Origin: Mesostigma viride
Taxonomy: Eukaryota > Streptophyta > Mesostigmatophyceae > Mesostigmatales > Mesostigmataceae
Direction: 5' to 3'
Length of the DNA stretch: 64,000 bases
Assembly: GCA_009746045.1 (NCBI GenBank)
Contig: RPFO01000167.1
Location: 2,823,648-2,887,647 of the forward strand
Both the position numbers and the translations under genes were made by a program. Positions 6,068 through 62,695 of this stretch are shown here, piece by piece. The notes under the pieces are model-generated. The model had not been told where the DNA came from. It did not search any database and saw only the letters and a program-made list of their open reading frames with translations. Positions within the stretch are counted from its first letter, which is position 1, and the number at the start of each line of letters is the position of its first letter.

Positions 6068-6537
6068 CTGTCGTGGAGGGGTTGGTTCAGGGCATATGAA
6101 TTTAGAAACCATTGTTAAGGGGGGAGGGGCGACAGGGGACAGAGCACCTCAGATGAGCTCCTGGGCCTTGTCCTGTGGATGGGTGGATCATTTGTGGGTG
6201 GCAGTGATGGTGGTAGCGATGGTGCCAGTAAGGTACAAGCGGTGTAGAGGCAGCACTGTACGAGATCTTCCAAACCAGATCTTGGGCCTTCTCGTGTGGG
6301 GTTGTGGTGGTTGGTGTCGATGGGCCGAAAATCTATCTGTACTAGAATTTCAAAACACTGTTTAGGGGGTAAGGGCAACAGGGCCCAAAGCACCTCTTAT
6401 GAGCTCTTGGGACGTTTCGCTTGTGGAGAGTGGTGGGTGGCAACGACAAGGGCAGTGCAACTTAGGGAAGAGACGTGCGTGATTGTACAAAGCATCTCAA
6501 AAGAGCTTCGTAGTACCGACGTCAGTGTTCTTCTCTT

Positions 6538-35530: not shown

Positions 35531-35769
35531 AGTGATGTTGATAATTAGGGTTAATTAATTAATCCGAGCTGTCCTCTACTGTAATGGCAGACGAGGCGGT
35601 AGTGTAGCTAATTAATAGCTAGTTAATTATTAGCTAGTTAATTAATAGCTAGTTAATTAATAGCTAGTTAATTAATTAAAATTAAATTAAATTAAATTTA
35701 AGTTAATTAATAGCTAGGCACATCAGCGTAAAAATCCTCTGACATTACTAATGTGCAAACCATTGAAGG

Positions 35770-36158
35770 GGATGTTCCGTTCTGCTCTCGACCGTCACCT
35801 ACTGGGAAAGTCAAATGGGCTTTCGTCCAGGGCGCAACACCGTCATGGCCATCTTCGTCGCGCGCCGCCTCTTCGAGGAAATCGCTCTCCTGCAACCCGG
35901 TGAGTTTCTTGCCATCCTGATCTTCCTCGACTTCATCAAGGCTTTTGATTCTGTCCTCTGGGACACGAGCTATGGGCTGTCCTTGCTCGCGCTCGCGTCC
36001 CTGGCACTCGCCTGATTACCGTCATCCGCACGCTGTATGAGGGGTCGACCACTTCTTCGGTGCGCACTCAACACGGCTTTAATTCCCCCGCCATGTCCCC
36101 CATGTCCACTGCAGACCGGCGTCTGGCAGTTGCGTCCTGTCGCCCCGCCGCCCACCCA
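35770..36158 (+). pseudogene. Reverse transcriptase fragment (LINE-type)
   Basis: The frame reads QMGFRPGRNTVMAIFVARRL, then LAILIFLDFIKAFDSVLWD, matching the GFRxGR and FxDFxKAFD blocks of non-LTR reverse transcriptases. After one frameshift, VPGTRLITVIRTLYEGSTTS follows. TGVWQLRPVAPP then aligns with the conserved TGVRQGCxLSP block, where the (ACCC)n tract begins. The catalytic YxDD block is missing. Confidence 0.75.
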
Positions 36159-37254: not shown

Positions 37255-38025
37255 CTACAAGCTCGCTGACATCATCTTGCAGAACGCCACCACGGCCGCG
37301 ACCATGATGGCCAAGTTCACATGACGGGTGGACGCCGCTCCCGAGGAGGGGAAGGGGGGAGACCCCGCCGATGGAGGCGGGGGAGAAGTGACTGGTGGCG
37401 ATGCCGTTGGTGGCGAGGGGACTGGCGGGTAGGCAGGAGGTGGAGAGGATGGTGGCGACGAGGGGGCCGGCGAAGGGCTGGGTGCAGGGGCTGGGACAGG
37501 CACCTGATTGGGGTTGAGCACCACTTGCAGGGGGACACCCCCCTGCTGCTGCGGGTCCACTGTTTCGATCATCTTCTGCAACACGGCTTCGAAGTCCGTT
37601 AGCCACACGTCCTGCCGCTGGATGTACTCTTCCACGATCGGGCGCGTGCTGGCGGGAGGGCATTGGTTCGGGCAGGGGCGATCCATGCCGCCCTCTGCGC
37701 ACCGGAACGTGCAGTTGACCACCCCCGTGGCCACGTCCAGACTGGCGCTGATGTTGCTGAACAGGGAGATGTCGGCATTGAGCATGATGAAGGGCGGGCG
37801 GCCTGGGATGACCCACTGGATGCGGTCTGGCACCCCAGGGAGGTCACTGTTGTTGACGTGGGATTGGAACCAGGGGGGTACGGCCAGCTCGCGGTAGTAG
37901 GCATTTTCTAGGAGGTCGTTGGCTTGCACCCAGGGGCCATCGAATCCCGAGTTGACACGTGACGCCCTCCCCAGGTTGTGCGCACCCATGAGTGCCACCG
38001 TCTCGCGCGCGCTGAGGCCAAACGT
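37255..38025 (-). CDS. Peroxidase exon 3 (proximal His, stalk, GPI signal)
   Basis: Acceptor cgacggcag. Encodes TFGLSARETVALMGAHNLGR through the Pro-rich stalk to a TAG stop. Two diverged copies of the acceptor and head lie upstream in the intron at about 38165-38185 and 38310-38335. Confidence 0.87.
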   Translation of the reverse strand, partial: TFGLSARETVALMGAHNLGRASRVNSGFDGPWVQANDLLENAYYRELAVPPWFQSHVNNSDLPGVPDRIQWVIPGRPPFIMLNADISLFSNISASLDVATGVVNCTFRCAEGGMDRPCPNQCPPASTRPIVEEYIQRQDVWLTDFEAVLQKMIETVDPQQQGGVPLQVVLNPNQVPVPAPAPSPSPAPSSPPSSPPPAYPPVPSPPTASPPVTSPPPPSAGSPPFPSSGAASTRHVNLAIMVAAVVAFCKMMSASL

Positions 38026-40259
38026 CTGCCGTCGAGGAACGGCATAGGGGTGGGGGGGGAAGGGACATGAGAGAGAGTGACGTAAGAGAGAGTGACAACG
38101 GAGAGACTACCCCGACAGGGACCGTGGCCTGCTTGACAGGGGATGTGGGAGACTAGATCAGTGCAACCGAACGTCTGCCGAGGGACGGGAATGGATGAGG
38201 GGAGAATTTCAAGGAGTGGGAAGGGAAGGGGGGGAGATGACGCAAGACGACGCAGCAGATGGTCCATCAGTGCACATGGCTGATGGTCTGAGAGAGATCA
38301 CTCTTGCGGGCGTTGACACCAAAGGCCTGATGAGGAATGGATAGGCCAAGGCAAGAGAAGGCCATGTAATGCCCTTCAGCGGTCCAAGTCCATTTCTAGT
38401 ATACTCCATCGATTCACTGTCAAATCGGCCCGTACGCGGCTCAAGCAGCACCGGACCACGAGCCTCCAAACCATGCAACCAGGCTGCTGCATGCAATGCA
38501 TGCGTGTGCATGTTGTCACGCAGGTACACATGCAACGGTACACAGGAACATTTAATGTAACAGGACAAGCTGGCCGTGCTGGTACTTGGTGGGTGAGGGA
38601 GAGCAAGGCAACCACGATCGGAAAATGTATTTTAAAGCTACCAATAATGAGGTGTTCCTGTGCATCCCTTATTAGGCTTCAATTACTAGGTTAGCCACTA
38701 GAGCTTGTTAGTAGTACAAGTAGAGCGACAGGTCGGCACGCTGCTGTGCACCACGCTGCGTGATGGCTGCCGATCGGGTCATACCTATCATGGCTGCGCG
38801 ATGGGTCCATGCCCCTATGATCCCTTCCTCCACGACCAAGCCAATCGGCTCACGTGCACCAGGGCACAGAAACCTTCACTGTTTTCAGTTAAACCCCTGT
38901 CACGTTCACCCAGGCAACCCTCAACCTATTCGTACAGGCCCCCACCCCACCAACCCCCCACACCCCTACACCCCAACCCCCCACCCCCACCCCAAACCGC
39001 CCCCTCTTCCAGCCCACCTGGCCAAAGAAGCCCAGCACACGCGGCGTGTCCCAATTGGCGCCCGGCATCTCCCTGGGGGGCCCCCCCGTCGCATCCGGCC
39101 CACAGTCCACGCGCCCCCACTTGTCCAATCGGAACGCCAGCAGAGGGCTCGTCCCGTCGTCCACCTGCGCCATGCGCGCCGCCTCCAGCCCCGCGAGTGC
39201 CCAGATGTCGGCGCGGGTGAGGTTTCCGCTGAATGCCGTCACGATCGGGTCCAGCGCCTCAATGGGCGAGCGAAGGCCGTTGTTGTCTGCCACATCCCCC
39301 ATGATTGACAAGAAATGAATTCATCAATCAATCAAATAGTCACACGCTGTCGTTGGGGATTCGCAGAGCACGTTAATACCTTATTAGAGTGCTTGCCATC
39401 CCTCTTTGTGGCACGACGAGAAGGCGGGCAGACACTACCGTCTTCCATCATGCCCAAAGGCAAAGCCGCAGCTGCAGGACCCGCCCAAGAGTTGACAAGA
39501 AACACCCGCACCGCAGAGGACAGAGGAATTGGAGGCCCCACCGGGGTTGACAGAGGACCCATCAGGCAGCGTGCATCCCGCTCAGGTCATGCGAGGTGAG
39601 GTTGGTAATCAATCTGGCATCGATCGTCCGTCCCCCTGCTCCCAGGCGTCGCAGGGACCCTATAGCATCAGAACCGTGTGTGTGCCCAGATGCCAGCACT
39701 TGCTGCAGCACATGAACATGCACACTGTAGTTCCGAACGTAGCATTGGATGGGTGCCCCCAGCTGCCAGACTGCCTGTCAGGGTGTCGTCGTCATCAAGT
39801 TGGTGGAGCTATTTCAAATCAACGCTGTTATCGGCATCAAGAGTTGGAAGAGGTGGCGTAGAAAGAGGCCGGCGAGCCAGCGCGATGTTGCGCCTAATAT
39901 CCGTGGCACTCTGCACGTATAATTTACGCATACGGCACTGTATGTCGCCCTGGGAGCGACATACAGTGTTAACGCACGTGCATCACTCCCCAGCTTTCCC
40001 AGCAGCAGCTCATTACCATGCCACGCAATCACGCACCTGGATTAGCAAGGTCCACGCAGCCATCGCATCCACCCACGCAGTCGTGGAAGGCCAGCCTGAC
40101 CAATCGGGGAATCAGAACCCGGTTCTTTCCCTGTGACAGTAAGGCACCGATGCTCGCCCTCGCGGCTTGGACCGTGGGTTCATCCACCACGGCTTGGCAG
40201 CCGTGCGCTAGAGTGCAAAGGCATGCCGCCACCGCCAAGAACCACAGACCCGCTCTCAT
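37255..40259 (-). CDS. Secreted, probably GPI-anchored plant/fungal-superfamily heme peroxidase, complete
   Basis: Exons 40259-40037, 39286-39018 and 38025-37255 (phases 1 and 0) give 420 residues. Residues 1-20 form a signal peptide (MRAGLWFLAVAACLCTLAHG). The distal heme site is LVRLAFHDC with Arg and catalytic His, followed by GGCDGC. NNGLRSPIEALDP and RADIWALAGLEAA follow. The proximal site is VALMGAHNLGR with the heme-ligand His, then SGFDGPW and MLNADISLF with the proximal Asp. All catalytic residues are present. After about residue 330 comes a Pro/Ser/Thr-rich stalk of about 60 residues and a short hydrophobic C-terminus (HVNLAIMVAAVVAFCKMM) preceded by small residues, typical of a GPI-attachment signal. 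It probably oxidises substrates with hydrogen peroxide at the cell surface or wall. The class (I, II or III) is unresolved. Confidence 0.88.
39018..39286 (-). CDS. Peroxidase exon 2
   Basis: Acceptor gatgtggcag, donor gtgggc. Starts with two bases completing an Asp codon (ANP-D-NNGLRSPIEALDP) and ends GFFGQ. Confidence 0.87.
39287..40036. other. Peroxidase intron 1, with a perfect 13-bp hairpin
   Basis: Contains CACTGTATGTCGC (39936-39948), a 7-base loop, and GCGACATACAGTG (39956-39968). The rest shows no gene. Confidence 0.6.
40037..40259 (-). CDS. Peroxidase exon 1 (signal peptide, distal His)
   Basis: The ATG at 40259 opens a hydrophobic signal peptide and the frame ends CVDLANP at donor gtgcgt. 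No upstream in-frame ATG gives a better start. Confidence 0.87.
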
Positions 40260-42436
40260 GACGCCGATAGCAGGCCCGGATAGAGGACACGCCGCTGCGA
40301 ACCAACGGAGATGGCTATTTTATCTCTTAACGGCGGGCCGTGAAGATGCAGATCTGGGGCAGGTAGTGGATACCACGCTCGTGATACTAGTAATGCGAGA
40401 GGGCGTTTCCATGAGAAAGCGGACAGCAGATGAACGTCCATTGCAGCACAAGGGTGCCTAAAATACGAAGCCTCAAAGGTTGCAAATCTGGCACGCGCTA
40501 CCCTCGTTCGTGAACGTCTCCGCCCGCGTACACGCGCACAATTGCAGGCAATATGATTGCGACAGCGTCGAAGACAGCCTAAAATAAAATTTTTGACGCG
40601 ACTGATGCTTACGAAAGCCGATCCCCGCTGCTACGAACTGCGGGCTTCCCCCCAAGTCAAGTCCATTTCAGGCAAAACTGGTAAGAGTCGCCGATTTACC
40701 TATGAACGCGACGAACATGATGACGGCGCAGCGACACGTGGCACTGAAAGGTGCACTTCTCTGTATCTCCGTCCCGCGGCCTGCAGTTTTTACAATAATA
40801 ATCTTAATTCTGTGATTCGATTATACTAAGTTCTAATACATTCTACTACAATTATACTACTAGTAGGGGTCAAATACAGAGTCTCATGATCTTAAACCTG
40901 AAAATCTTAAACGAGTGTGGGGGGGTGTAGTACTAGTAACCAATGGCCGACGGCCTTTTGGATCCTCATGCAACCGCGCGCGGTGACGATCTTGGCGGGG
41001 AAAATCAAGAATTCAAGGCGGACCGTGTCATGGCGGACCGTCGGCAATTCGGCATGCCTATCTGTCTGATGACTCGTGTATCACTTACGAAATTCGACTT
41101 GCCGGTGTAGCAGTGTTTCCCACTCCGCACAAATCTCGTTTGTAACGCCGTGTCGCCGCTTCTGTCGCTCATCCCCCGGGATTTCGCGTGGGTCGTGCGC
41201 ACTGGTGTCAACACGCCATTCGGCTCATGTTTGTTCGACAAAGCCTGAACTCGAGCCGACGCTCTCGCCATTATCATCGACCTGCGCTTTAGAAAGCCAG
41301 AACTTGTCGCATATCGGAGGACGTTGCAAAACCTGCGGCCGGACGCAGCCATTGGCTTGAAAGGTGCCAGCTTCCGCGTACTGGCCTGGCACGTGCTTCG
41401 AAACCGGGTAAGCTACGTCATGCTTACGCTGTGTGATTTTCTGCGCGTATGGGCTTACCTTTGCCACTCCTACCCAGTAAACTAGAAGTCACCGCCCAGG
41501 CACCCAGACAGCCTAGTGCACATGGCTTTCTCGGCGCTGCCTAGGGGCATTGGTTGCGGCCTAAGCCATTCCTTGCCTAGGAGGCTTTCGGGGGCTCGTG
41601 CCTGGCGTTACGGGCTTGGCAGCAGAATCGCCTTTTCCAGACAGTACCACGTGCAGCTGTCTTCCCCTCGTGTGATCTAGGTCAGGCATTGTTGGGTGAA
41701 CGCTGACCGGTTTGGGACTTAGTTGGGTGGTGACTGTATCAAAGCCTCGTTTCCCTGCTGTGCACCGTGTTGCACCATTCCCATGTCGTGGACAATTGGC
41801 AGTAAATTAACGAGCCACTATGGACTGCCCTCATAATCAAGGCCTTGTCACTTTCCCTCTTGTCCACATGGTCACCTCTACTCGGGATTGCTGCCTCAGC
41901 TTAACCCAACAAAGTTATCATAGTTACCATAGTTACCGTAATTTACATGGACAGGGAGCTTCAAAGTATTTGATAGCAGGATCGTTGCTGTGTCGTTGCG
42001 TCCACGTACTCATCAAATTAAGCTCGAGGGTCGAGGTAGGGCCCGGTTGCAACAGCAGGCCAATGGTTTCCACGTATCCAATCCTGTCGATGCTCCCGTA
42101 TTGTTTTGTCGGTTACATGTCTCTCTTCTTTGCTTCGTCCCTTTGGTTTTCTCGTCGGTTACGCGCCTCTCTTCTTTGCTTCTCTTCTTCCATCACTTGT
42201 TTTCTCTGCCACCTGCTACCTGTTCCACCGCTGGCTGCCCCTGGATGCCAGCTCATCCTCCCCTTGCCGAGCCATCCACCTGGCGATCCGACAACCACAG
42301 GGGCAGCGACACCCGCCCTGTGCACCCAACTTCAGGTGCACTCACAGGGGTCGTGGACCGCCCGACGCCATCCCCAGCTCTCTCATCCTACGTCCGGGCT
42401 GCCACGAGGGGCAGCTCTCACGAAGCCTACTCCAAC
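40260..42436. other. Divergent intergenic region between peroxidase and LRR genes
   Basis: The two genes are transcribed away from each other, so both promoters should lie here. Open frames at 41005-41467 (minus) have no recognisable domain. I see no convincing core promoter motif. Confidence 0.5.
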
Positions 42437-44311
42437 ATGGCAACGCTCCATCCCTCCAAGCGCGTGAAACGGGGCAGGGGGCAGGGAGGGGCTGGCCCTT
42501 CGGCTGCCACCCCAGCCGCCCAGGAAACCGGCCCCTCCCTGCAGGCCCCAACCCCCCATGACAACCCCCCGCTGCTGAAACGCAGGACCTGTGTGGTCCT
42601 GCGTGCGCACGATGTTGACGATGGTGACGACGACGTGCCCGCGGGCGGCGCGTCCCTGAGGGACCTCACCGAGATCTACGGGGAAGACCTTGCGGGTGAC
42701 AGCAGCAAGCCCGGCATCCAGAACGGTCTCGAATGGGTGTTCGACCGGTGCCCTAAGCTGGACACCATCTGCCTGTCGCCCAGAGAGGACCACGAGGAGT
42801 CCTGGCTCGACCGTGACCTCCACTCGCTCGCGTGGCCAACCGCGGGGCTGTACACGCGACTACCCAAGGAGCTATATTTAGAGGGCATCGCCACGCGCTA
42901 CCCTGGGCTCAAGTACCTTAACGTGTCCGGGTGCGCGGACGTGAAGGGTGCCAGTGTGACCGCCCTCGCCAAGTCCTGCCGCGGGCTGGAGGCGCTCGAT
43001 GTCTCAGGGTGCTGCGTGGGGGATGCTGCGCTCAAGAAACTGGCCGAGTGCTGCCCGAAGCTCGCCCGTCTCTCAGCAAACGACTGCAAGTCGGTCACGA
43101 ACGACAGCCTCAAGGCGCTGAGCGAGGGCTGTCGCCGGCTGGCGTATCTGGATGTCGGGCGGTGCGCCCGCCTGACCAACGCTGGCATTACCAAAATCGC
43201 CCGCGGGTGCCCCTTTCTTCGGGTACTCCTCGTCTCCGAAACTGGCATCGCGGATGCGGGCCTGAAGGCGGTCGCAGAGCACTCCCTCCAACTGGAGTGG
43301 CTGGGCGTGAGGCTGTGCAAGGGGGTGACAGATGTCGGCGTGAAGGCGATCGCCGCCGGGTGCCCCCAGCTCAAGCGGCTGGACGTGGGCTATTGCGACC
43401 GCGTGACCGACACCAGCGTTACCGCGCTGGCGGCCGGTTGCCTTGGGCTGCGCCACGTCGTCCTCGCGAGGACAGCTGTCACGGACGCAGGGGTCGGGGC
43501 GCTTGCTGCCAAGTGTCCGCGACTGGAGCACCTGGACGTGAGCGGGCATGGCATCATGTTTAGCGGTTTCGATGGTGGGGTGTCGGACGCCAGTATCCGG
43601 CTCATTGCGGCGAGTTGCCCCGACCTGAGGCACCTGGACGTCTCGCAGTGTCCGAGGGTGACGGATGGCGGTATCGGCGCGGTGGCAAAGAACTGCCCGG
43701 GTTTGGAGTCGCTGACGATTTCCTGCACGGGGACGACGCGCGCGAGCGCACGGGCGATTGCCACGTGTCGCGCGCTCATGTACTTGGACGCGTCGTACTG
43801 CAGCTTTGAGGATGACGACCTGGCGGTGATCGCCAAGGGATGCCCGAAATTGCGCCACCTGGACGTCTCGACGATGCACGCAGTCACCAAGATGTCGGTG
43901 CGGGCGATCAGTCGGCACTGCACAGGGCCTCGCGTGTTTAAAGCTGGCAAGAGTTTCTGCTCGGGCGCTGACCTGGCGAAGCTGTTCGATGAACGGGGGG
44001 ACCAGTTACGGGAGCTGGATTTATCCAAGTGTTGCGTGTCGGATGCCACTGTCGCGCTGGTGGCGGACAAGTGCCACGGGCTCAAGTCGCTCGCGCTCCG
44101 GGACACGGAAGTGTCGGATGCCGGCTTGGGCATGCTCGCCCAGGGGTGCAAGCAGCTGGGGTTCTTGGACGTGTGGGGGTGCTATCGCGTGACCGCGGCC
44201 GGTCTAGCTCAATTCAATCGGTTTAGGTGTGAGATACGGGCGGATCAAGGTGTGCAGGGGGAATCGGACGATGAGGAATGGGTCTTTGCGGATGAGGTGA
44301 TGGGCGAGTAG
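42437..44311 (+). CDS. Intronless leucine-rich repeat (cysteine-containing, AMN1/F-box-type LRR) protein
   Basis: 624 residues. The ATG at 42437 (ccaacATGg) is chosen because the GC-rich coding character starts there. The frame is open further upstream to 41990, which is less gene-like. Residues 1-75 are basic then acidic and low-complexity (SKRVKRGRGQGG may be a nuclear signal). From about residue 155 about 16 repeats of 24-27 residues follow the CC-type pattern C..L..LDVSGC..VTD..L..LA..C (for example CPKLRHLDVS, CRGLEALDVSGC). An acidic tail (ESDDEEWVFADEVMGE) ends it. Such arrays usually bind substrates for SCF-type ubiquitin ligases or act as scaffolds. I see no F-box, so the role stays open. 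Confidence 0.9.
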   Translation: MATLHPSKRVKRGRGQGGAGPSAATPAAQETGPSLQAPTPHDNPPLLKRRTCVVLRAHDVDDGDDDVPAGGASLRDLTEIYGEDLAGDSSKPGIQNGLEWVFDRCPKLDTICLSPREDHEESWLDRDLHSLAWPTAGLYTRLPKELYLEGIATRYPGLKYLNVSGCADVKGASVTALAKSCRGLEALDVSGCCVGDAALKKLAECCPKLARLSANDCKSVTNDSLKALSEGCRRLAYLDVGRCARLTNAGITKIARGCPFLRVLLVSETGIADAGLKAVAEHSLQLEWLGVRLCKGVTDVGVKAIAAGCPQLKRLDVGYCDRVTDTSVTALAAGCLGLRHVVLARTAVTDAGVGALAAKCPRLEHLDVSGHGIMFSGFDGGVSDASIRLIAASCPDLRHLDVSQCPRVTDGGIGAVAKNCPGLESLTISCTGTTRASARAIATCRALMYLDASYCSFEDDDLAVIAKGCPKLRHLDVSTMHAVTKMSVRAISRHCTGPRVFKAGKSFCSGADLAKLFDERGDQLRELDLSKCCVSDATVALVADKCHGLKSLALRDTEVSDAGLGMLAQGCKQLGFLDVWGCYRVTAAGLAQFNRFRCEIRADQGVQGESDDEEWVFADEVMGE

Positions 44312-50206: not shown

Positions 50207-50378
50207 CTACGGGTAAATCCCGCTGCTGGCGTACGTGGCGGCGATCTTGCGGATGACGATGATGAGCGCAGCCGTGCGGTAGTTGACGCTCATCTCCTTA
50301 GCGCACTTCTGCACGCGCTGGAGCGCCTCCACCATCGTCTCCTCGAGCCCCGAGCGGACATAATCCAGCTCGCGCGCG
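50207..50378 (-). CDS. GDH: GDH last exon
   Basis: Acceptor cacactgcag. The first base completes a Gly codon, then [40 protein letters not shown] and an end YASSGIYP. It matches the C-terminal helices of hexameric dehydrogenases. Confidence 0.92.
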
Positions 50379-53300
50379 CTGCAGTGTGGATCAGGCATAC
50401 GAGAGCAAACCGGGAAACATGCAAGCAAGCAAGCAAGCAAGCGGATGCTTGATGTGCAAGAAAAAAACACAATAAAAAAAACACAAGAATAAAACACCTG
50501 TAGGACGAACAACCCCCTTCATGAGCCGCTCGCGCACTTCCTTGTTGAACAGACTTGCTATATCCATAGTAATGAGGCTCATGATAGTAGCTAGGGAACC
50601 CGTATATTTGGCTCACCCCTTGACAAGCCGCTTGCGCGCCTGTTAAATAGACTTACTATATCAATCTTTTTAAAAAAGCTACCGGCTAGGGAACTTGAAT
50701 ACTTGGCTCACCCCTTGACAAGCCGCTTGCGCACATTCTTGTTGAACAGTCTTGCTATATCAACAATCAATAGTAATGATAATAGCTAGGAAACTTGAAT
50801 ATTTGGCTCACCCCTTGACGAGCCGCTTGCGCACTTCCTTGTCAAACTTGGAGCCAATCTTGTCTTCGATTGCGTCGCACATGAACTGTTTCAGAGACAA
50901 AGGATTAAGTATGTATTTGAGAGGAGGAATGCAGATAGAATAGCGGTAAGAGCGGTGGTATTTGAGAGGAGGAATGCAGATAGAATAGCGGTAAGAGCGG
51001 TGGTATTTGAGAGGAGGAATGCAGATAGAATAGCGGTAAGAGCGGTGGTATTTGAGAGGAGGAATGCAGATAGAATAGCGGTAAGAGCGGTGGTATTTGA
51101 GAGGAGGAATGCAGATAGAATAGCGGTAAGAGCGGTGGTATTTGAGAGGAGGAATGCAGACAGAATAGCGGTAAGAGCGGTGGTATTTGAGAGGAGGAAT
51201 GCAGATAGAATAGCGGTAAGAGCGGTGGTATTTGAGAGGAGGAATGCAGATAGAATAGCGGTAAGAGCGGTGGTATTTGAGAGGAGGAATGCAGACAGAA
51301 TAGCGGTAAGAGCGGTGGTATTTGAGAGGAGGAATGCAGATAGAACAGCGGTAAGAGCGGTGGTATTTGAGAGGAGGAATGCAGATAGAATAGCGGTAAG
51401 AGCGGTGGTAGGAAGCAAACTGTGCTCTTTTCTCAAACATAACTCGCACAGAAACTGTATGAGAGACATGGCGAAAAAATCAATCGATCAATCAATATAA
51501 AAAACCATGGATACTCAGGGGTACATCACGCGGTAGCCCACCGGATTGTTCGGAGGGAGTCTTTTCTCGATTTTTTATTATTGAGTTGCACAGGAGCTGT
51601 GTCCAAAAAATAGTCGGAATGCATAAGTATAGTTTGTAATGGCTTTATGGGTAATCGAAAAAGGAGGAAGCTTTGCACTTTGATCACGTGTCATAGGGAC
51701 TAGGGCTTCGCAAGGCACGACGCATGGCTGCCCATTCATAAAGAACTACATCACAACAGTAATTCCTTATCGTGTGATCGTATCGCGTGGGTACCGATAG
51801 CGGAACTAGGGACTCGCAAAGCTCCCCCGTCTATCCAAGAACTATCCCAAGTCCTGAATGTGGCAAATAATGATAGAAATCCTGGTGGCCATGAGGTACA
51901 CGAACAGAGGCACATCAAGCGGCGACTCGTCGAGTGTCAGAGACGGTGTGCGCAGATAGGTAAGGGACAGAGGTACGGGGAGTAAGGAATTTATTAATAA
52001 ATTATTATACTCACATACAGCAGCATTATTTCATTCATCATTTGATAGATCCAGGGTTTCAAAAAAGGTAAGGTTCTTATTGACTATGCTATCGTAAGGC
52101 ACCGTGCTCTCCTGTTCACCCAAATTGCGATTACTGTTTAATAACAACGTCAGCATATACAAACACTATCACCGCAAATAATAAACCCACAAATAATCAT
52201 AAAACCACAAAAAATTGTACCAACAAAACCAATGGAAAGGTGTTCTCCTTCTTGTGCTCGATCATCGTGCCGTTCATGCGGCCATGCCTATTCAAATAAC
52301 AATAGCTAGCATGTATTGATTCGTGCGGCCATGCCTATTCAAATAACAATAGCTAGTATGTATTGATTCGTGCGGCCATGCCTATTCAAATAACAATAGC
52401 TAGTATGTATTGATTCATGCGGCCATGCCTATTCAAATAACAATAGCTAGTATGTATTGATTCATGCGGCCATGCCTATTCAAATAACAATAGCTAGTAT
52501 GTATTGATTCGTGCGGCCATGCCTACTCAAATAACATTAGCTAGTATGTATTGATTCGTGCGGCCATGCCTATTCAAATAACAATAGCTAGTATGTATTG
52601 ATTCGTGACAAATGGTTCATCTTACGGTCTGGATTCGCTGTTTTGCGGCAAAGGGAGCGGCGGGCGAGCTGGTGGCGCTACTTCATGGCGGCCTTGAGAG
52701 TATGCTCATGGCGGAGACCAATGCGGGCCATCGGACAACCCCTTGGGGGACAAGTAACCGCGTGGAGTACTACTGGGACCTTAGAATCACTGCAGCTTAC
52801 TTTGCTGGTAGTACACCATAGACAATGTGGTACACACGAGAGATTTCTAGCACAAAGTGGTTACGTGTAGTTCACCTAGCGCGGGGCACTTTGGCGCCAC
52901 GCCTGCAGGGCCTGCACTTGCATCCGCACCCATGCACATGCAAGGCAGCTATTATATTGAGGTAGCCATGGCGGCGTAGCCTCTCATTGGTTTTCTCAAC
53001 GGATTCTCCATAGAATTGAGTCGACTAAAAGTTCGGGGACAAAAATACGTTTATCGCGGTCAATACCACAGCATCGTTTGATTTCGGGAGAGCTAGCACA
53101 GGATCCGAAGAGATTGCGGCAGAAGAGATTCCACAAGGCTGTAGAGCAAATGTCGCGAGCGAAACGGCATGGCTTAGCCATGACAAGAACGATGATTCAA
53201 TTGCGCAGGAAATCGCCGGCAGCTTGAGGCCGAATTACAGGGCTCGTGTTCAGGCTACCTCCAAGAGCAAGCTAGATGAATCGGGGCGCTATCTGCTCTT

Positions 53301-56300
53301 GCGTGGACAGGAAATTCCGGAATACGAGAAGTGATGCAGCATTTGGAAAAGGGGTAGCGATATCGATAGACAAACGACTTGCCCAACTATAAAGTAGAAA
53401 GGACATCGGAGAAGATCATCGGGGTGACCGAGGGCGAGATCTATTCATCTGGGGATGAGAAGGGCTCGAGCAGACATCATTGAGCCTGAAACCTTTCCGC
53501 TGCCTCCCGATCCCACCAACTTGGTGGGGTTCAGGGCATCGGCGGCGGCCATTGCCGTGGCAATGCGGCCAAAATTGGCGCGCAGTTTGGGGGCAAGGGG
53601 GGAGGGGTCAGCGGAGGGTCTGGCATGGGTGGTGCAGACTTCAGAGTTTCCGTCCGGGGAGGGGGCCGGCAGAGGTGGTGCCGCCAGTGATTTAAAATGG
53701 CGCGGGTCAGGTGGGAAAGGAGGGGAAGGGGGATCCTGTGCATTGGGGGACTGCCCAGAGGTGAGATCCCTTCCACATGGGGCCCGAAATGATGGCGATA
53801 ATAGAGGCCCTGATGGGGTAAATGCAAGGGGTGATGGGCGGCGGTGGGGGTGTTGACACGGCTGGGACAGGGGGGATGGGTGGCCCCACCCTGGGCACAA
53901 CGGCGCGGGTGACCGTAGGACTCACTCCATACCTCCGGCCAGAACCTGCTACCTGGCGGAGCGTGGGGCAGCTGACCGTGGAGTCGGGAGAATAAAGGCA
54001 GAGCCAACGGTGGGCGGAGGGCACCTGCAGCGCCCCCCGCCTTTGGGTGCAGGGGTTGGAGGCGTGGTGGGGCCCAGCGGAGGCGGAGCTGGGGGACATG
54101 GCCCCAGCGCACCCGCCCCACGCATCAGCGCATCGGACAGAGCAGGAAGTGCCTCTCCTGTGGCCACCGTCGCTGCCGATCATCAGCAGCTCCTCCAGCG
54201 AGGCCGAGGGATCGGACAGCAACATCACCCTTGCGCACGTGCCATTTTTGTGGGGGTAGACCCATGGACAGGCTCGAGCTGCCATGGTCATGGTCCTGAT
54301 TCTCCAGGTTTCTGACCAGTGCCGGCCACGCGCGCCGAAGGGTAGTGCTCACGTACCGAAAGGAGGAGCATTAACTAAGACGCGAGGGGCCGGTGACGCT
54401 CCCAGCTCGTGCGGAGGCTGTCCCGTGGAAGGTGCAGGCGACCAAGTTTGGGGAGCGGACGATTCCCTACAACCTGCAGGAGGGCCAGGGCGGGCGCCAC
54501 GGCAGTGTGCGGGCGTTCCTGGGGGCAGCGAAACCCCTGGGCACCAAGGCCCAGGGACCCCGCAGCTGGACGAGCAAGGAGCCCATCGACATTGCAGTCA
54601 ACGTGTGCTCCCTTGTCGAAGCCGCGGTCAGGGAGCTGGGACGGGAGGTGGTCCTGGACGAGAAGGGGGTAGTGTCCTATCTATCACGAAACAAGACTAC
54701 TATACAACGTGTACGACCTGGCCTGGATGGAGTATGCGAGAAGCATCGTGGAGGCCCTGCTGATGCTAGAGAACGAGTGGGGGCCCGGGGGGTGGAACGG
54801 CGAAGCGGCGTACTTGCTGCCGGTGGTGGAGGGCGGCAGCAAGCGGCCGGCGGTGTACCACAAGTCGATGAAGGAGGCCAAATGGGACCGGGAGGCACGG
54901 GCTGGCGTGGGCGGCCAGGGCAAGTCGCAGCGAGGGGGCGCCGCCAAGAAGCAGTGAGAAGGCGCGCTTTGTATCCCCTGCCGAGGGTGGCTGTCGTGCC
55001 GAGGGCGGCTGCCGAGGGTGAGCGCGCACGCCTATGATCCCGGCGTAGGTTGCCCACACCAGCTCGTGCCTCCCGGTCCCGCTCGTTCTCTGGCAGCAGC
55101 AGGGCCTCCGCGATGCGCCCCGCATACTCCATACAGGCCAAGTCATACACTGCTATTTTGTTTCGTTAGATAGGATTCCCCCTTCTCGTGCTCGCTCATA
55201 ATGCCGTTCATGTGGCCATGCCTATTAAATAACAACTAGTATGTAATGTTTAATAATAAATAGGACGTACCCCCTTCTCGTGCTCGCTCATCTTGCGGTT
55301 CATGCGGCCGAAGCGCACTTGCTGCAGGTTCTTCAGCCACTCAAAGTAGGAGACAGTGACACCACCCTGAAGGGATATCCAGGGGGGGGGGGGAGGGATG
55401 GTAGGGATCAAGATGAGTGGCAAGACATGCAATAATCGTTTCCATTCCATCAGCGATGGCCTTCCAGAATGCCCCACCAACAATGCCCGACCAGCATATT
55501 ATACAAAGACCAAACGCTCTCCGCGTTGACGAGCATGTCATGCAGCCGAACAACTCAATGTGGAACTGGAAAACCAATTATGGCAAGTATATAATATCCA
55601 CTGCTCCTCACCGCGTTGACGAGCATATCGGGCAGCAGAACGATGCCGCGCGACTCGAGCAGTGCCGCCGCGGGTGCCGTCACGGGCCCGTTGGCCGCCT
55701 CAGCGATGATCTTGGCCTGCACATGTACCATGCACGGCGCATGCGATTGTCAGGCAGGGCACATGCACCATAGCACATGCCATTGTCAGGCAGGGCACCT
55801 GCACCATACATATGCCATGGTCAGGTAGGGCACATGCACCGTACATGGCACATTCCATGGTCAGGTAGGGCACATGCACCGTACATGGCACATGCCATTG
55901 TCAGGTAGGGCGCAACCAAGAGAGCCCGGCGATAAAAAACAGGCGATGATCTTGGCCTGCACACGTCTCATACATGGCACAGCCGCACAGGATTCTTAGA
56001 CATGAGGCCAGGACCTTGGCTGCACGCACACGTACAACCAATCGGGGTATACAACTACAGTTGACGTAGTAGGAGTGTGTGTTGAAAGTCGCGCATCCAA
56101 GGGACGGAACGGTGTCAGGAAAAAATGGCGCGCCGCCAAGAGTGCGCCCCCGACAGCGACAACTGATAATCCAATCAATCCACACAACCATTTCCGGTGA
56201 GTGCCGTGCGGAGATGCATGTCCCATCCGGCGGTCGCTCCACTTTGTATCGCACTAAAAAAGAAAAAAGGCAACAGACAGAGGATAAATGGCGGAAGGGA

Positions 56301-59300
56301 AGTGTCCACACTGACGCACACTGAGGGTTGTAAAGGGAATGCTCGTCCGCTCATCTTCCTCATCTTCACGCCCACCCGCACAGACCCATGCTGTGACACT
56401 TTCGCCCACCCACCTTGATGCGACCGCGCACAGGGCCACGCTCGCATGCTAACACTATAGCACGTAAGCACACGAACAAGAGTGCACGTCACCCACCCAC
56501 CTTGATGCGCGGCGCGTTGCCTGAGTGGATCGTGCTCTCCAGCGCGGCAGGGATGAGGATGTCCACGGGGAGCGTCATCACGTCCTCGCCATGCGCCACC
56601 TGGCGCGTGACCGACGACAGGAAACAGCGGGATGCAGCATGTTCTTAGGGAGCGAGGCAGCATGCTCACCATAGCACTGTCATAGTCCAAAGCACTGGTC
56701 GGCACGGTCAAGAATCACGTATGGGAGAGGCAGCATATAGTCCTCATATTTACATAAGTGAGGTGGTCGATGCTAGGCGGCATCCAGCATGGATTACAGC
56801 AGAAATAAAACTTAAAACGGGAACTAGAAAATAGAGTAGAACTTGGAGAAAAAAGTGAGTGGAGGGGTCGGCCCCTCAAAGCGCATTTCAGGCAAAGTTT
56901 CCAAAAGTTTGCCACTATTGCCATAGCGATAGCACTCAGCAGTGCGCAGCAGTAGCAGCCACGCACAGTAGTACCTGATCCCCCGATAGCAGCTGCACAC
57001 CGGTGCATGATGCACTTTGAATAGCAGCTACGCACAGTACTACCTGATCCCCCGATAGCAGCTGCACACCGGTGCATGATGCACTTTGAATAGCAGCTAC
57101 GCACAGTACTACCTGATCCCCCGATAGCAGCTGCACACCGGTGCATGACGCACTTTGAATAGCAGCTACGCACAATAACACCAGATCCCCCGATAGCAGC
57201 TGCACACCGGTTCATGATGCACTTTGAATAGCAGCCACGCACCATAACACCAGATCCCAACCGACACCGAAGGCGCTGCGTTCACCGGCACCAGACCCCA
57301 GCTGATACCAAGTGCGCTCCTACCCACCAATGTCTGTGACCCCAACAATTTGCCATGTGTACCCTCACTGTGACACGTACTACAGCTTCAATAGGGGGCA
57401 GCCTTCCCACGGGTTGGCTGGCGATAGCTTTGTACCACGCATTGGGGACCAAACGTCTTTCGTGCTATCCAGGTAGATGTGCGAGCGCGGTTGACAGCAG
57501 AAGTGATGAGCACGGGCGACAGAAAAACCACAGCAATTTGAATAAATAAATAAATAAATATATAGATTATAATCCACCCACCAGCTTGGTGTTGGGGAAG
57601 CCCAGGATGGCCCCGTTCTGGGCTACACGGATTGTGCTCACGGGCGGCCATCGCACACACTGTGTATACTGTATACATGTGTACTATACTTGTACCGTAT
57701 ACACTTGTACTAAAACGTAAACGCCACATACACCTGCACGACTAGTCGATCGACGCGTGCTGGGCTACATGGATCGGGATACCCTGCGGTGATGGCATAC
57801 GGCCAAATACACCTGCACGACTGGTAGATCGACGCGTGCACCCACCAGGGTGGTGTTGGGGAAGCCCAGGATGGACCCCTTGGCCGCCTTGTACTCGAAC
57901 AGCGCGTTGACGTCGATGCGGTCGGAGCCTGGCGCGGGCACGATGGCGCCGTTGTGCTCGACGATGCCCACCACGCGCGCGCCCTCGTCGTGGAGGAACT
58001 GGGGGCCGGCATCCGTCACAGCGGGCCAGGCGTGAACGGTCACCCACAAGGCAGGCAGGCAGGCAGGCAAGAACAGAGGCATGCTTGAAAGAATCATTAC
58101 ATCAGATCCCCCAAGCAGCCAACCAAGCAGGTCAGACGCTCCGCACGTAAAATGCTCAGCCAACGCGCAGAAAGCCACGTGCAAGGTTCTCCATCATTAC
58201 TTAGCTGCACTGAACCCACAAGCAAAAACGTTTGCCAACATATCTTTTCTGCAACCCACAAGCCCACCAGGCTTTGCGAGTGCCAGCATAAGCTTGCTTT
58301 GCGAGGGCCACGCCTACCTAGGGGTCAGGTCCCATAGTGCACGATCGAACATCTCACGCAGCATCTCACAAGGGACACGTTGGCCAGAAGCGTGCGCCAG
58401 CACACCATAAGCGACACGCGTTCGCCAGCATACCTTGCCCATGATCCACGCCCCTTTCCAGATCTGTCCCTTTGCTCATGACCCATAAACACCACGCGAG
58501 ATCTCTCCAAGTGACACTCATTTGCCAGCATGATGCAGTACAAAGCAACACGTGCGGCAGCATACCTTGGCCGCGCACATGCCAACGACATCGCCTCACC
58601 CAACACGTGCGTGTGCCATCATGATATGCGAGTGCCGAATAGGCACCGTGTGAGTGCCGCACATGCGCCGTATATGCGCCCGCGCATACCTTGGCCGCGT
58701 GCATGCCGACATTGCCGCCTCACCCAACGCGCTAATACTGCTGGCACTCTACTGCCGTATGAGTGCCGTACGAGCGCCAGCGCATACCTTGGCCGCGTAC
58801 ATGCCGACATTGCCAAAGCCCTGCACCACCACGGTCTTGCCCGGGATACCCAGAGGGAGGCTCAGCTTGGCCATGTCTTCCTGGAAAGGGGAGGCAAAAG
58901 GACCAACGGCAATAATAAGAATTCAAACACAGTAGCGTAGCATCTTATAACAGAGGGTAAGAACAAACGGATCAATTCCAACAATAAGCATCGGAACACA
59001 GTAGCAGCATCACATAAGAGAGTCAGAGTGTTCTTATTTCAATTGCAGTTTGGCGAGGTCCCTGCGTGAGTATATGCAACAACAGGGGTGCGACAGCAAA
59101 GACATAAGCGCACAATGAAACAGTCTCTCAGACCATTCCTGAATCGGTTTTCTCTGAATATAGTTTAATTAACGCATGCGGGAAAGATAGGGCCGCTATG
59201 CCTTGGCCTGCATGTGGAAGGCTGTCTGCGACATGGGCTGACTAATTCGATCTGTACAAAGGGTTTCATGTTCGCCTGAATTTTCCTTGGGTGACCCGGT

Positions 59301-62300
59301 TGTTTATAAGGGTCGGTGGCTATTAATTAGTGGTCCGAGAAAATCAACTGTAGGTTTTATACGACTTACTTGCAAAGATTATTTGGTTGCAACAGCTGAG
59401 GTTAGGTGGGGACCTGTAGGGTCGGCTGGTTGCTTAACGAATCTTTGACCGATTTGGGTTCTTTAGTGAGTCGTGATTAGTTATTGTGTAGTGGATTCGG
59501 ACCGGCCCAAGGGGTCGATGGGCGAGTTTTATGTTTGCCAGTCTTGGGAACCTTGTACAACTACCTGTACGGTTAACGCACTAGCCTGGGGGTGCGTGGC
59601 CACGTTGTTTGTAGTGGCGTTTTCAGCACTGTTCAGGCCGGCGTGTGACGCATGCCGGTGTCACTTAATTTAGGATGATGTCAGCTTGTGTGTCGGCGGA
59701 CCATGCCTTAAGCAAGCTAGGCAGGCAGAGATCCGCAATTGTTTCTTTCACAATGGCGGCAATGGCCGCCTGTGCAAAATTGCACATTCAAGCGCGGGTT
59801 GCATCTGCCTTGTAACCGAGCCAGATGGTGGCACAACCGCTAAGTTGTTCGACCAAGCATAGTAGAGTTGGTCGTGCTACGGAAAGAAAATTTAAATTTA
59901 CCCCCATGACGTTTTCCCCGGCTGCGGGTCTTTTTGACATGGGCGAAGGATGGGGCGCTACTTCAGCGGTTTGACCAGCTTCGGTGGAGCTGTTCATAAG
60001 TTTCTAAAACAGTTCTAGTGTCACATCGCAGGCTTGCCACCTTGCGATGGTGCGTAAGACGTGACCCGGACTCTAGAGGTCCGGAACCAGGTTCCTGTCA
60101 GCGACGGCCTGTTTTTTGATAAATTATTTTTTGCGGCGGCAGGTCCGTTGTCCAGCTGCTCCTGCCGAGGAGGGGTAGTTGGGGACAATAGGAGCCGCGC
60201 GAGGGTTGCGCTCCGAAGCTAGAAATTATTCCCTATTGCGAGACTCGAGTTGGGGAGGGCGTCTTAGGGAGGCGAGGCTACGCCAGACCTTTGTCGTTCC
60301 TTTTCGTCTCAGCACCTGCTGCGCGGCTCAGTCTATTATGGTGTCTTTATTTACAAGTATGTATGAATTTACTCTCAGCCCTGCCTTCCAATAGCGTACG
60401 GGGTCAAAACATGGCATTGACTATCGCATGGTGTGAGCTTGATGGTGTATGCTTGTCCACACAGCCAGAATCTTGGCATTGTCTACTGATGCTGGCACAT
60501 TTCCAGGTCTACTGATGAAGGAACGAGGGGGCCTAAGATAGGGGGCAAATAAGATAGGGGCCTTTCTTAAGTATGAAGCAAAGAGGTGGCACTAGAAAGG
60601 GGGCGCAACCATGGTATTGCTCAATTGATCGGTTACATCCCATCGGTGCTCTGGCTCCCTCAATCCTGCCTAAACATGTGAAGCAAAGGGGAGCACCACA
60701 GGAGGCCAGAAGGAGTACAGCGCCAGATATGTTACCTTCAAATGAAGAAGAATGGAGTTACTCAAGCTAGTAAGTCCTTTAGAGAATTCAGTCCACCGAA
60801 GAAGACCGCCACAAAATAAGCACTGAAGGAGGGCACCTCGCTCAAACAGCACTCGAAGCAGGAAGCAGTTACAAAACACCTGAAGGGTGTGGATGATTCA
60901 TTTTTATATGTCTAATGCTCACGGAGACATGCCTCGCTCGTGCAGTACTCTAACGCCCTACGCACATAGGAAGCTCTGGAGCCCTAAGCCAACCGCTAAT
61001 AGATGCGGCCTCGCGCGCGCAGTACTCTAACGCCCTAAGCACATAGGAAGCTCTGGAGCCCTAAGCCAACCGCTAATAGATGCGGCCTTGCGCGCGCAGT
61101 ACTCTAAAGCCTTACACACACAGGGAACTCTCAAGAACAACCGCTAAATGACGCGCACCTCGCTGGCGCAATACTCTCGGAGGATGTAGAAGACGCCCAA
61201 CCCGGTGGCCTCCACACGCCCCTCGATACCTCCCTGCGCGATACCCAACAAAGCCAACGGCGAGCAAACCAAGCAGATGGCGAGCCAACCAAACAAAGCA
61301 GATGGTGAGCCAACCAAACAAAGCCCAACGGTGTGACATTCGTGTGGGGAAGCCATGGACAAGTGACAAAGAAACAAGGTCACCAATGAAACCTCGTCGC
61401 CCCGCCGAGTCTACGACTTCGCAAGGTAAAAGTTGGTGGGAACGAGGCGAAGCCAGTGAAATGAGGGCGGTGCAACAAGTACCCGCCGGTCTTGCGAAGC
61501 CGTGGTGACGAGCAGGCAGCGATCAATGTTTTGTATGGTGACAAGGAACAAGGCAGGGAATGAAGTTAGATATTACTGACAAGCGAAGGCAGGGATCGAA
61601 GAAAAAAACAAGCTAACCATTGCAGATTCCTGACTCTATCACTACAGCAGAAGACAAGAAAGGACTAACCGCTGCTTAGAGACGGCAGGTTCTGACATGT
61701 GGAATAGAGCCAATCACAAAAGCACTATCAGTGGCATGCCAGCAACCGCAAAAAGATAGGAGCAACTTTGCCCAGTCCACATCTAGCTGCCATGGACTCA
61801 TCGGCAGTCCTGCCGCGAGCGGCTAGTCAACAAGGGCAGGTGTAGGGGCGCCATCAGCAGTGGGCCAGCTGTCTAGAATGGGGTCCCAGTCAGTGCCTAG
61901 AATGGGGTCCCACCGCTAGCCAACCTGACAGAGAATCGGGCACTTTGATACGGATGAGAGAGCCAGCACACTGCGTAGCGCGCTGGACTTCACGAGGGTT
62001 CCATCAATATCTGGCGGAGCCCGTTTCATTATTTATGTGGGTGATATAAATGCGAGGTAGTTGGAATATTACAGCCGACAAGAACGTATGGCTGGTGGGA
62101 CTTACAACGGAGTGTCATGTGTGATGGAACTGGAATACTTGGCTGCCATACGCATCAACTGGAACACCTCCACAAGCAGTGTCCTGTGCCAAGGCGGTGG
62201 GGATTCTCCCTGCCTCCTCGACTGGCTTGCCCATCGCGCGCGCGGCACAGCCATTCTAACTGCAATCCTCTTATTGCGGGAAGAGCAATTGTTGGACTTG

Positions 62301-62695
62301 GCCCTACAGCGATCTGGTAGAAGCCAGGCTACACCCATCTCGTCCACCGGCTTGCCCATTTCATGGAAAAAAGCCGCATGGTTGAAAATAACTAGAAGGC
62401 TTTCCTACCTCCTCCAAAGGCTTGCCCGTTTTATAGAAAAGGTGTCAAGGTATCGCGTCTAAATGGTGAGAATGGTTCTTACCACCTCCGCCGGCTTGCC
62501 CGTGACACATGTGCGGACATAAGTGCTAACAAGTGCTGGATATCTAATAGCAGTTGCTGGACCTACTCTTTACAAGTTGCACCCACGGCTTTGCAAGCAA
62601 ACCCCTTTGACCCTAAGACCCACCTCCTCCGCCGGCTTGCCCGTGACGCACGCGGCGCGGTTGATCTCCATCGTGTGGTGCTGCTCGTACGTGTC
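50207..62695 (-). CDS. GDH: Glutamate dehydrogenase (hexameric, animal/protist type), C-terminal nine exons
   Basis: It interconverts glutamate and 2-oxoglutarate plus ammonia with NAD(P). Exons 62695-62624, 61233-61159, 58880-58788, 57998-57846, 56599-56501, 55716-55612, 55366-55271, 50885-50812 and 50378-50207 all have GT...AG borders. All introns are phase 0 except the last (phase 2). Together they give 312 residues with no stop until TAG (50209-50207). In order they show [25 protein letters not shown], the nucleotide-binding [25 protein letters not shown]...[32 protein letters not shown] and a C-terminal helix region with [12 protein letters not shown]. The antenna-like extension between SYFEWLKN and the C-terminus points to the animal/protist class, not the shorter plant enzyme. 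The N-terminal catalytic part, with the active-site Lys, lies beyond the window or was not found in 62.7-64 kb. Introns are packed with exon-edge echoes. Confidence 0.93.
50812..50885 (-). CDS. GDH: GDH exon 8 of those visible
   Basis: 74 bases. Acceptor tctgaaacag, donor gtgagcc. Encodes [20 protein letters not shown] then RLVKG. Three tail echoes follow (50709-50750, 50611-50648, 50508-50560) and one head echo precedes (51442-51470). Confidence 0.9.
50906..51410. repeat. 45-bp minisatellite, about 11 copies
   Basis: Near-identical units (GGTATTTGAGAGGAGGAATG then CAGATAGAATAGCGGTAAGA) lie precisely between exon 8 of GDH and the diverged copy of its head. Because 45 is divisible by three, long frames run through it on both strands. 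They are not genes. Confidence 0.97.
51471..52240. other. GDH intron, no gene seen
   Basis: AT-rich, with no coding block or recognised element. Confidence 0.5.
52243..52608. repeat. 47-bp minisatellite, about 7 copies, grown next to an exon echo
   Basis: Units of 47 bp contain TGCGGCCATGCCTATTCAAA then TAACAATAGCTAG. The first unit is joined to a diverged copy (52243-52288) of the tail of the GDH exon at 55271-55366, whose reverse complement supplies the GCGGCC block. Confidence 0.92.
53030..54957 (+). mobile_element. Foreign plus-strand element inside the largest GDH intron
   Basis: Opposite to the host gene lie open blocks: about 100 codons ending near 53333 ([20 protein letters not shown]...); 53455-53856 ([20 protein letters not shown]); 54390-54690 ([20 protein letters not shown], then [20 protein letters not shown]); and, in another frame, 54709-54957 ([20 protein letters not shown]). 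They look like one decayed retroelement with a gag-like protein, but I recognise no domain. Confidence 0.4.
55062..55170 (-). repeat. Inverted partial copy of the element's YDLA block
   Basis: The minus frame [20 protein letters not shown] matches the plus copy at 54709-54780, then skips to the sequence matching 54887-54912. About 105 bases are thus deleted relative to the plus copy. Confidence 0.7.
55271..55366 (-). CDS. GDH: GDH exon 7 of those visible
   Basis: 96 bases, phase 0. Acceptor atcccttcag, donor gtacgt. Encodes [20 protein letters not shown] then [12 protein letters not shown]. Tail echoes lie at 55175-55222 and 52243-52288. Confidence 0.92.
55612..55716 (-). CDS. GDH: GDH exon 6 of those visible
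   Basis: 105 bases, phase 0. Acceptor catgtgcag, donor gtgagg. Encodes [20 protein letters not shown] then [15 protein letters not shown]. Head echoes at 55941-55968 and 56006-56026; tail echo at 55521-55545. Confidence 0.92.
55725..55915. repeat. About 40-bp tandem repeat, 4-5 copies
   Basis: Units contain GTCAGGTAGGGCACATGCAC then CGTACATGGCAC, between exon 6 and its head echo. Confidence 0.85.
56501..56599 (-). CDS. GDH: GDH exon 5 of those visible
   Basis: 99 bases, phase 0. Acceptor cacgcgccag, donor gtgggt. Encodes [20 protein letters not shown] then [14 protein letters not shown] tail echo (GCATCAAGGTGGGTGG on the minus strand) lies at about 56408-56430. Confidence 0.92.
56935..57262. 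repeat. 69-bp minisatellite, about 4.5 copies
   Basis: CCCCGATAGCAGCTGCACAC recurs at 56981, 57050, 57119 and 57188. The unit is divisible by three, so the minus frame stays open. Confidence 0.95.
57846..57998 (-). CDS. GDH: GDH exon 4 of those visible
   Basis: 153 bases, phase 0. Acceptor ggcccccag, donor gtgggtg. Encodes [20 protein letters not shown] then [20 protein letters not shown] and FPNTTL. A clear tail copy (ILGFPNTKL plus donor) lies at 57574-57622. Confidence 0.92.
58788..58880 (-). CDS. GDH: GDH exon 3 of those visible (nucleotide-binding)
   Basis: 93 bases, phase 0. Acceptor cccctttccag, donor gtatgc. Encodes [20 protein letters not shown] then [11 protein letters not shown], the Rossmann GxGxxG. 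Tail echoes at 58684-58720, 58561-58597 and 58429-58447. Confidence 0.93.
58881..60825. other. GDH intron body, no gene seen
   Basis: Open frames at 59473-60770 are short and unrecognised. An inverted repeat ACCCGGACTCTAGAGGTCCGG-like motif sits at about 60064. Confidence 0.45.
60831..61135. repeat. 75-bp tandem repeat derived from a GDH exon tail
   Basis: Units near 60931, 61009 and 61085 (plus a diverged one at 60831) each contain the reverse complement of the exon tail GAGTATTGCGCCAGCGAG. They continue directly from the true exon ending at 61159. Confidence 0.9.
61159..61233 (-). CDS. GDH: GDH exon 2 of those visible
   Basis: 75 bases, phase 0. Acceptor tatcgcgcag, donor gtgcgc. Encodes [20 protein letters not shown] then YCASE. 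Confidence 0.9.
62624..62695 (-). CDS. GDH: GDH exon 1 of those visible
   Basis: 72 bases, phase 0. Acceptor ggccctcaccag, donor gtgggt. Encodes [20 protein letters not shown] then PAEE, matching the DTY...ACVTGKP stretch of hexameric dehydrogenases. Four tail echoes follow at 62482-62510, 62405-62430, 62333-62358 and 62210-62235. Confidence 0.91.

Follow-up and report, generated by a model that had tools for sequence, protein, structure and literature searches.

In the potato RdRp gene, tandem duplication across an exon-intron boundary copied real splice signals, a duplication on the acceptor side giving rise to one new intron (PMC4974935). Minisatellites formed by internal tandem repeats at human exon-intron boundaries can alter splicing, and 27 intron modifications, linked to novel introns, are described in segmental-duplication genes (PMC2812944). 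Intron gain by tandem duplication in Drosophila involves duplicated coding segments with proto-splice sites, the new introns lying inside exons (PMC2891723). Here we describe a related arrangement in the alga Mesostigma viride, in which degenerate copies of exon edges together with their splice sites, hereafter echoes, lie in the introns of a glutamate dehydrogenase (GDH) gene, within a stretch of 64,000 nucleotides analysed as a whole (G000:C1502:2823648-2887647, the window), and at a proportion of splice donors elsewhere in the genome.

Unlike the potato case, the Mesostigma copies lie mostly on donor sides, are often serial and occur in several genes, with no new intron seen; compared with the human case, about a quarter of sampled donors are concerned and the copies were apparently left in the intron; and, where the Drosophila introns arose inside exons, the copies here sit in introns that already exist. 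A literature search, limited in collection and in terms, turned up no account of a genome with serial copies of exon edges at many of its introns. Human introns derived from tandem arrays with splice sites, alternatively spliced and of modern origin, are reportedly the subject of Zhuo et al. 2007, to judge by its title, rather than decoys in existing introns. Local tandem duplication across splice junctions is frequent in the Mesostigma genome, and we consider it probable that the echoes are the decayed remains of tandem repeats that ordinary local tandem duplication seeded across exon-intron junctions. The mechanism put forward in an initial annotation of this DNA, that introns lengthen by short duplications which include the junction, is largely right, with qualifications as to its extent.

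Exon-edge copies in the glutamate dehydrogenase gene

A nine-exon model on the minus strand at 62695-50207, with GT-AG introns and exons that join in one open frame, has a 312-aa product with 100% identity to P0001 (481 aa; jgi/Mesvir1/7951 Mv11870-RA.3); the gene encodes the GDH of Mesostigma viride. Its exons with a donor inside the window are numbered 1-8 and their echo families E1-E8, while B1 denotes the family of a neighbouring gene, gene B, for which there was no Pfam match. Upstream of the window on the same contig (segment L009), a 5-kb run of N lies within the GDH gene, and residues 44-168 of P0001 are mostly without a convincing match in that segment.

Each donor query comprised the exon tail and 12 donor bases, with p values taken from dinucleotide-shuffled queries. 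All eight GDH donors in the window have exon tail and donor copied in their own downstream intron, seven at p<1e-3 and exon 2 at p=0.003, and each scores higher there than in all 12 other introns tested, so the serial copies first noticed in this gene are real. The check proposed at the time, an alignment of the terminal 40 bases of each exon to introns and to shuffled controls, gave the same picture: the 40-nt tails of exons 1-8 score 45, 23, 49, 52, 19, 40, 58 and 47 against their own downstream introns and 12-21 against seven other introns each, and non-adjacent introns thus do not match equally well. For exons 2 and 5 the match is weak when exon bases alone are used and becomes clear with the donor bases included (p=0.003 and 9e-6). 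In GDH and the peroxidase gene at 40259-37255 (100% identity to Mesvir1/7949) taken together, a score of >=30 was reached by 6/10 exon tails and 0/10 exon heads, by none of the exon interiors (0/51 and 0/116) and by none of the shuffled sequences (0/500 and 0/500). Over the 1.2 kb that could be read up to the N run, no copy of the exon tail follows the first GDH donor, which lies outside the window, and six of the eight GDH acceptors are without a copy at p<0.01.

The echoes, on the minus strand like the gene, vary in number, length and preservation, and at every junction that could be scored their number differs by at most one copy from that first given. Exon 1 (62624-62695, aa 170-193 of P0001; p=3e-9) is followed by four, at 62509-62481, 62429-62404, 62357-62333 and 62246-62213. 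Exon 2 (61159-61233) has three, between 60932 and 61098 (p=0.003), rather than the four originally counted; two are full 77-bp units, the last retains the exon part only, and the donor GT has become GC in all three. Exon 3 (58788-58880) has two strong echoes at 58716-58655 and 58606-58512 and a short one near 58434 (family span 58425-58716; p=1e-12), with GT retained in 3/3. At exons 4, 5 and 6 the single donor copies claimed were all recovered: for exon 4 (57846-57998) at 57575-57617, covering positions -36 to +7 relative to the donor with 91% identity (p=1e-12), in addition to a separate copy of the intron head at 57760-57723; for exon 5 (56501-56599) at 56402-56429, covering -15 to +12 (p=9e-6); and for exon 6 (55612-55716) at 55517-55551, covering -30 to +5 with the donor GT changed to GA (p=1e-9).

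Exon 6 has echoes at both ends. On its acceptor side one strong copy of acceptor and exon head lies at 55981-55943 (p=5e-7), the second of the two reported having been seen by eye only, and a tandem-repeat search found a 40-bp array adjoining the acceptor at 55719-55911 that is related to the acceptor-side intron sequence. Both donor copies reported for exon 7 (55271-55366) were found: one at 55149-55210, with GT lost (p=3e-12), and a long echo at 52283-52247 adjoining a 47-bp array (together 52247-52607), the array itself (52273-52607) holding sequence of the intron head together with the beginning of the exon-7 tail copy. To these is added, on the plus strand at 54658-54702, a copy in inverted orientation of the end of the exon-7 tail and the head of the intron. 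It belongs to an inverted repeat in GDH intron 7 at 54658-55180, the wider extent of which was judged by eye, and an open reading frame (ORF) on the plus strand at 54375-55034 in the same intron region is without a Pfam match. Exon 8 (50812-50885) is followed by three echoes in steps of about 100 bp, at 50747-50653, 50637-50555 and 50550-50514 (p=2e-12), and an acceptor copy claimed at its start finds weak support (p=0.0025). The last exon lies at 50207-50378.

Tandem repeats are hard to assemble, and the 5-kb run of N falls in one GDH intron region; even so, an assembly or haplotype artefact as the source of the copies is extremely unlikely, since the GDH copies differ from their exon by 7-32%, most copies are likewise diverged from the exon, and copies are present on several contigs. 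The published assembly was built on 113x PacBio reads (PMC6947507), which applies here if the analysed assembly is the published one.

Over all junctions of the window, copies at p<1e-3 occur at 8/14 donors and 2/14 acceptors (Fisher 0.046), and at p<0.01 at nine donors and four acceptors, of 14 each (p=0.13). Intron-interior segments of the window have a local copy at p<1e-3 in 10-13% of 249 cases (25/249 against the 8/14 donors, p=5e-5, in a set that includes GDH, chosen by the initial annotation), and exon interiors in 0/126, or 2.4% at p<0.01. Among 40-mers, 12% of 610 from intron interiors and 14% of 1160 from intergenic DNA likewise had a local copy with a score of >=30. Outside GDH, one of six window donors has copies, in gene B, and none of the four donors of the peroxidase gene and a further neighbour, gene A, does; the second gene B donor gave p=0.078 with the query placed one base off. 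Detectable local direct repeats cover 22% of intron bases in GDH, 0% in the peroxidase gene, 7% in gene A and 8% in gene B, and the claim that introns here lengthen by local duplication accordingly stands to a limited degree.

Splice donors elsewhere in the genome

Because the initial annotation had picked GDH for this pattern, genes beyond it were tested in two samples. Sample (a) is the unselected adjoining 200 kb (L010-L029), in which exons were called by codon bias and splice-site weights; applied to GDH, the caller placed 5/8 exons exactly but failed to find exons 2, 7 and 8. The 72 exons called in the sample provided 67 donors and 63 acceptors with flanks long enough to test, and the counts include low-complexity and retroelement-like false exons. 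Sample (b) consists of CCT chaperonin genes identified through PF00118, five multi-exon loci on four contigs from about a dozen clusters, picked before their sequence was inspected. Two CCT loci, G000:C1641:60944-67934 and G000:C887:341605-349664, have equal match scores at three exons and are possibly duplicated or haplotypic.

At p<1e-3, copies were found in sample (a) at 16/67 donors and 7/63 acceptors, in 14% of 194 noncoding segments and 4.2% of 523 exon-interior segments, and in the CCT loci at 8/26 donors and 2/28 acceptors, in 56/385 intron-interior and 1/77 exon-interior segments (donors against intron interior, p=0.045). Pooled, the samples, which span five contigs, give 24/93 donors against 9/91 acceptors (p=0.0066) and 83/579 noncoding segments (donors against noncoding, p=0.0087), with 23/600 among exon interiors. 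About a quarter of the sampled donors therefore carry a local copy. The statement that nearly every intron carries serial copies of its own exon edges fits GDH and, roughly, a gene of the EMP70 family; it does not describe the whole sample. Donors exceed acceptors and background by a modest margin, about twofold, though not in every subset.

The EMP70-family gene (G000:C1502:2751845-2760317, L022-L023) lies in the unselected stretch, its first called exon about 3 kb further upstream, and has donor copies at 5/7 and acceptor copies at 4/7 called exons. With glycosyltransferase 2, nicastrin and UNC-93 it makes up the genes of the 200 kb with Pfam support above the cut-off, among which 8/15 donors and 4/16 acceptors have copies at p<1e-3; a sulfotransferase-like exon, scoring at the Pfam cut-off, has copies at both donor and acceptor. 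The copies are local and specific to the intron concerned: for 32 donors from GDH and the CCT genes, matches at p<1e-3 numbered 1/142 in other introns of the same gene, 1/32 in inverted orientation and 0/192 in introns of other genes. Introners or other mobile-element introns would place one sequence family in many introns; on this point the comparison with other genes covered the donor edges.

Repeats make up 66% of the Mesostigma viride genome and 30.1% of intron space (PMC6947507). Frequent local duplication might hit exon edges about as often as any noncoding DNA, GDH being a chance extreme that happened to be picked. About 14% of noncoding segments have a local copy, a background which the initial annotation left unweighed; acceptors equal this background, high-scoring exon calls show no excess (donors 3/22), only one of the six window donors outside GDH has copies, and local repeats are more abundant in GDH introns than in the rest of those measured. 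Against this stand the excess of donors over noncoding DNA outside the window, the excess in the CCT loci alone, and that in the window, though the last set includes the picked gene. On balance, we regard background alone as an unlikely explanation.

Structure and origin of the copies

The freshest case is in a CCT gene (segment L032 of contig C1702), where the exon ending at L032:4113 continues directly into a 48-bp minisatellite at L032:4083-4569 (G000:C1702 about 1285982-1286468; 10.1 copies, 97% matches). Its first unit consists of the last 31 exon bases, the donor GT and 15 further intron bases, and nine later units have GTGAGC or GTGCGT at the corresponding position. Head-to-tail arrays with minisatellite-sized units of roughly 10-100 bp were returned by TRF in GDH as well (77, 100 and 47 bp), beside the ten 48-bp units in CCT, and in both the CCT array and GDH exon 8 the first unit is coding and includes the splice donor. 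Older versions occur at GDH exons 2, 3 and 8 and in gene B, spaced in steps of 72-132 bp, and some of these copies have homologous intron flanks. The B1 family comprises three tandem echoes in steps of 86-88 bp on the plus strand at 23146-23356, after the gene B exon ending at 23093 (p=4e-5). Copies are direct, local and in the intron of origin, and in part of the families they stand head to tail, as expected if short tandem duplications had included the junction.

For 15 significant donors of GDH and CCT, whose introns measure 245-4385 bp, the best copy lies 33-292 bp downstream of the donor. Outside the window, 35 echoes that span the junction show a conservation of 0.79 in the intron part and 0.82 in the exon part, spanning having been required. 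In GDH and gene B, copies were picked by exon similarity, and the lower identity of their intron flanks is biased accordingly. A limit of 12-39 nt on the exon part of echoes, seen in GDH and gene B, was dropped, for it reaches -59 in the EMP70 gene.

These distances bear on the model of Rogers, in which introns are created by tandem duplication of AGGT-bearing exon pieces and the echoes would be remnants. That process leaves exon copies within introns; yet it predicts a copy of the exon tail at the 3' end of the intron, whereas the copies here follow the donor, mostly within 300 bp, and include donor bases. At none of the 15 significant donors does the intron lie between a pair of copies of a single exon segment with AGGT, and we consider this origin highly improbable.

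The echoes could also have been selected as decoy donors or alternative exon ends. An intact donor is present in 30/35 echoes outside the window, and the CCT array is open in frame, so that use of a decoy would add 16-aa repeats. The echoes outside the window were, however, required to extend beyond the donor, a choice that favours retention of GT. Among the echoes of GDH and gene B, 10/21 retain GT, and the last 15 exon bases have a copy-to-copy identity of 0.75. Decoy donors were left behind, as originally proposed. A depletion of GT among these 21 (binomial p=0.11) was considered and is not borne out by the echoes outside the window. Stops in frame precede the first decoy in 8/8 GDH introns, which is common by chance at such lengths, and use of a decoy there would run into a stop and truncate GDH. 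A function for the echoes is very improbable.

If ordinary local tandem duplication is responsible, a segment running from the last tens of exon bases into the intron, of tens to about 290 bp, would be tandem-duplicated, sometimes many times; this is seen directly in the fresh array and in the families with full units. The first unit would then remain unchanged, being coding and holding the donor in use, and the intron copies would decay freely. The original upstream donor would stay in use while the copies persist as unused decoys. More speculatively, copies upstream of acceptors may be retained less, since splicing would more readily take up an additional AG on the upstream side, which would leave fewer acceptors than donors with copies. 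The scarcity of copies of exon interiors is expected if copies in coding interiors are removed. The simplest reading would be that selection maintains the parent exon with its donor and that the remainder turns over.

Several observations weigh against this account. The donor excess in the 200 kb fades at exon scores >=60 (donors 3/22 and acceptors 3/20 at p<1e-3), at p<0.01 the Pfam-supported genes there have copies at 8/15 donors and 7/16 acceptors, and the pooled comparison at that threshold gives 27/93 against 15/91 (p=0.053). Lower retention at acceptors leaves an excess of donors over noncoding background unexplained. In nine settings of a neutral simulation blind to junctions, donor copies arose at 0.2-2x the rate for intron interiors and 0-38% of echoes had their right edge within +12, so that the donor excess was not consistently reproduced. 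Furthermore, E1, E4, E5, E6 and E7 are not full tandem units now. Neither these five families nor the final copies in E2, E8 and B1 match the parent significantly past about +8 to +12 of the intron, and this holds even for exon parts with 91-93% identity. One alignment of the first exon-7 copy gives a longer gapped match, which a second analysis does not support.

Such edges might arise if donors themselves were hot spots, through copying linked to transcription or splicing (R-loop repair, or template switching at donor-like microhomology) that stops at the donor. The excess of donors over acceptors and over noncoding background, and the loss of homology within +12 in several GDH families, would fit this. 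So would the offsets of the 17 nearest donor echoes, compiled by hand, nine of which lie 85-106 bp from the donor against 12/96 and 30/401 of other local repeats, in a bin chosen post hoc. The fresh CCT array and E2, E3, E8 and B1 nevertheless contain intron flank, the 35 echoes outside the window keep their intron part nearly as well as their exon part, with the proviso on spanning given above, and the nearest offsets in the EMP70 gene, again by hand, are about 77, 80, 101, 113 and 685 bp, so that there is no general step. Clustering at 85-106 bp is not claimed, the bin having been chosen after looking and holding only 1/5 of the EMP70 offsets. We judge hot spots of this kind improbable, and favour ordinary tandem duplication across junctions.

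It remains a tentative idea, less likely to be right than wrong, that 5' splice sites are preferred seeds or preferred survivors of local tandem duplication and that at least a quarter of donors head rows of decoys. If so, donors would exceed acceptors because splicing adheres to the first donor yet is unable to pass over an earlier acceptor, or alternatively because duplication is coupled to splicing or transcription, and the decaying copies would be a genome-wide record of competition between identical 5' splice sites.

Other features of the window and significance

Acceptor-side echoes are found at two further exons of the window, both on the minus strand. The gene A exon that starts at 6067 is preceded by three copies of acceptor and exon head (6152-6438; p=3e-9), that at 6190-6152 being strong and those at 6315-6277 and 6438-6399 weak, and the peroxidase exon that starts at 38025 is preceded by two weak ones (38167-38345; p=0.007). 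Elsewhere in the window there is a 22-bp minisatellite of 147 copies at 18642-21915 (3.3 kb), a weak reverse transcriptase fragment at 35767-36012 (PF00078, below the cut-off), and a long, apparently intronless ORF with leucine-rich repeats at 41942-44308, which ORFs at window-relative positions -59541 to -57822 resemble. The whole window was scanned with Rfam at gathering thresholds and with ARAGORN, and there were no matches.

For annotation, the echoes mean that gene prediction in this genome may pick wrong exon ends; one CCT prediction took an apparent echo donor first. The choice among several identical donors is a basic question of splicing, and Mesostigma genes offer rows of two to ten near-identical donors, every one of them in an exon-like context. 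The genome could therefore serve as a natural test of splice-site choice, in which the look-alike sites probably must be ignored by the cell, and it bears on how introns can expand through copies of their own edges while the gene stays intact.

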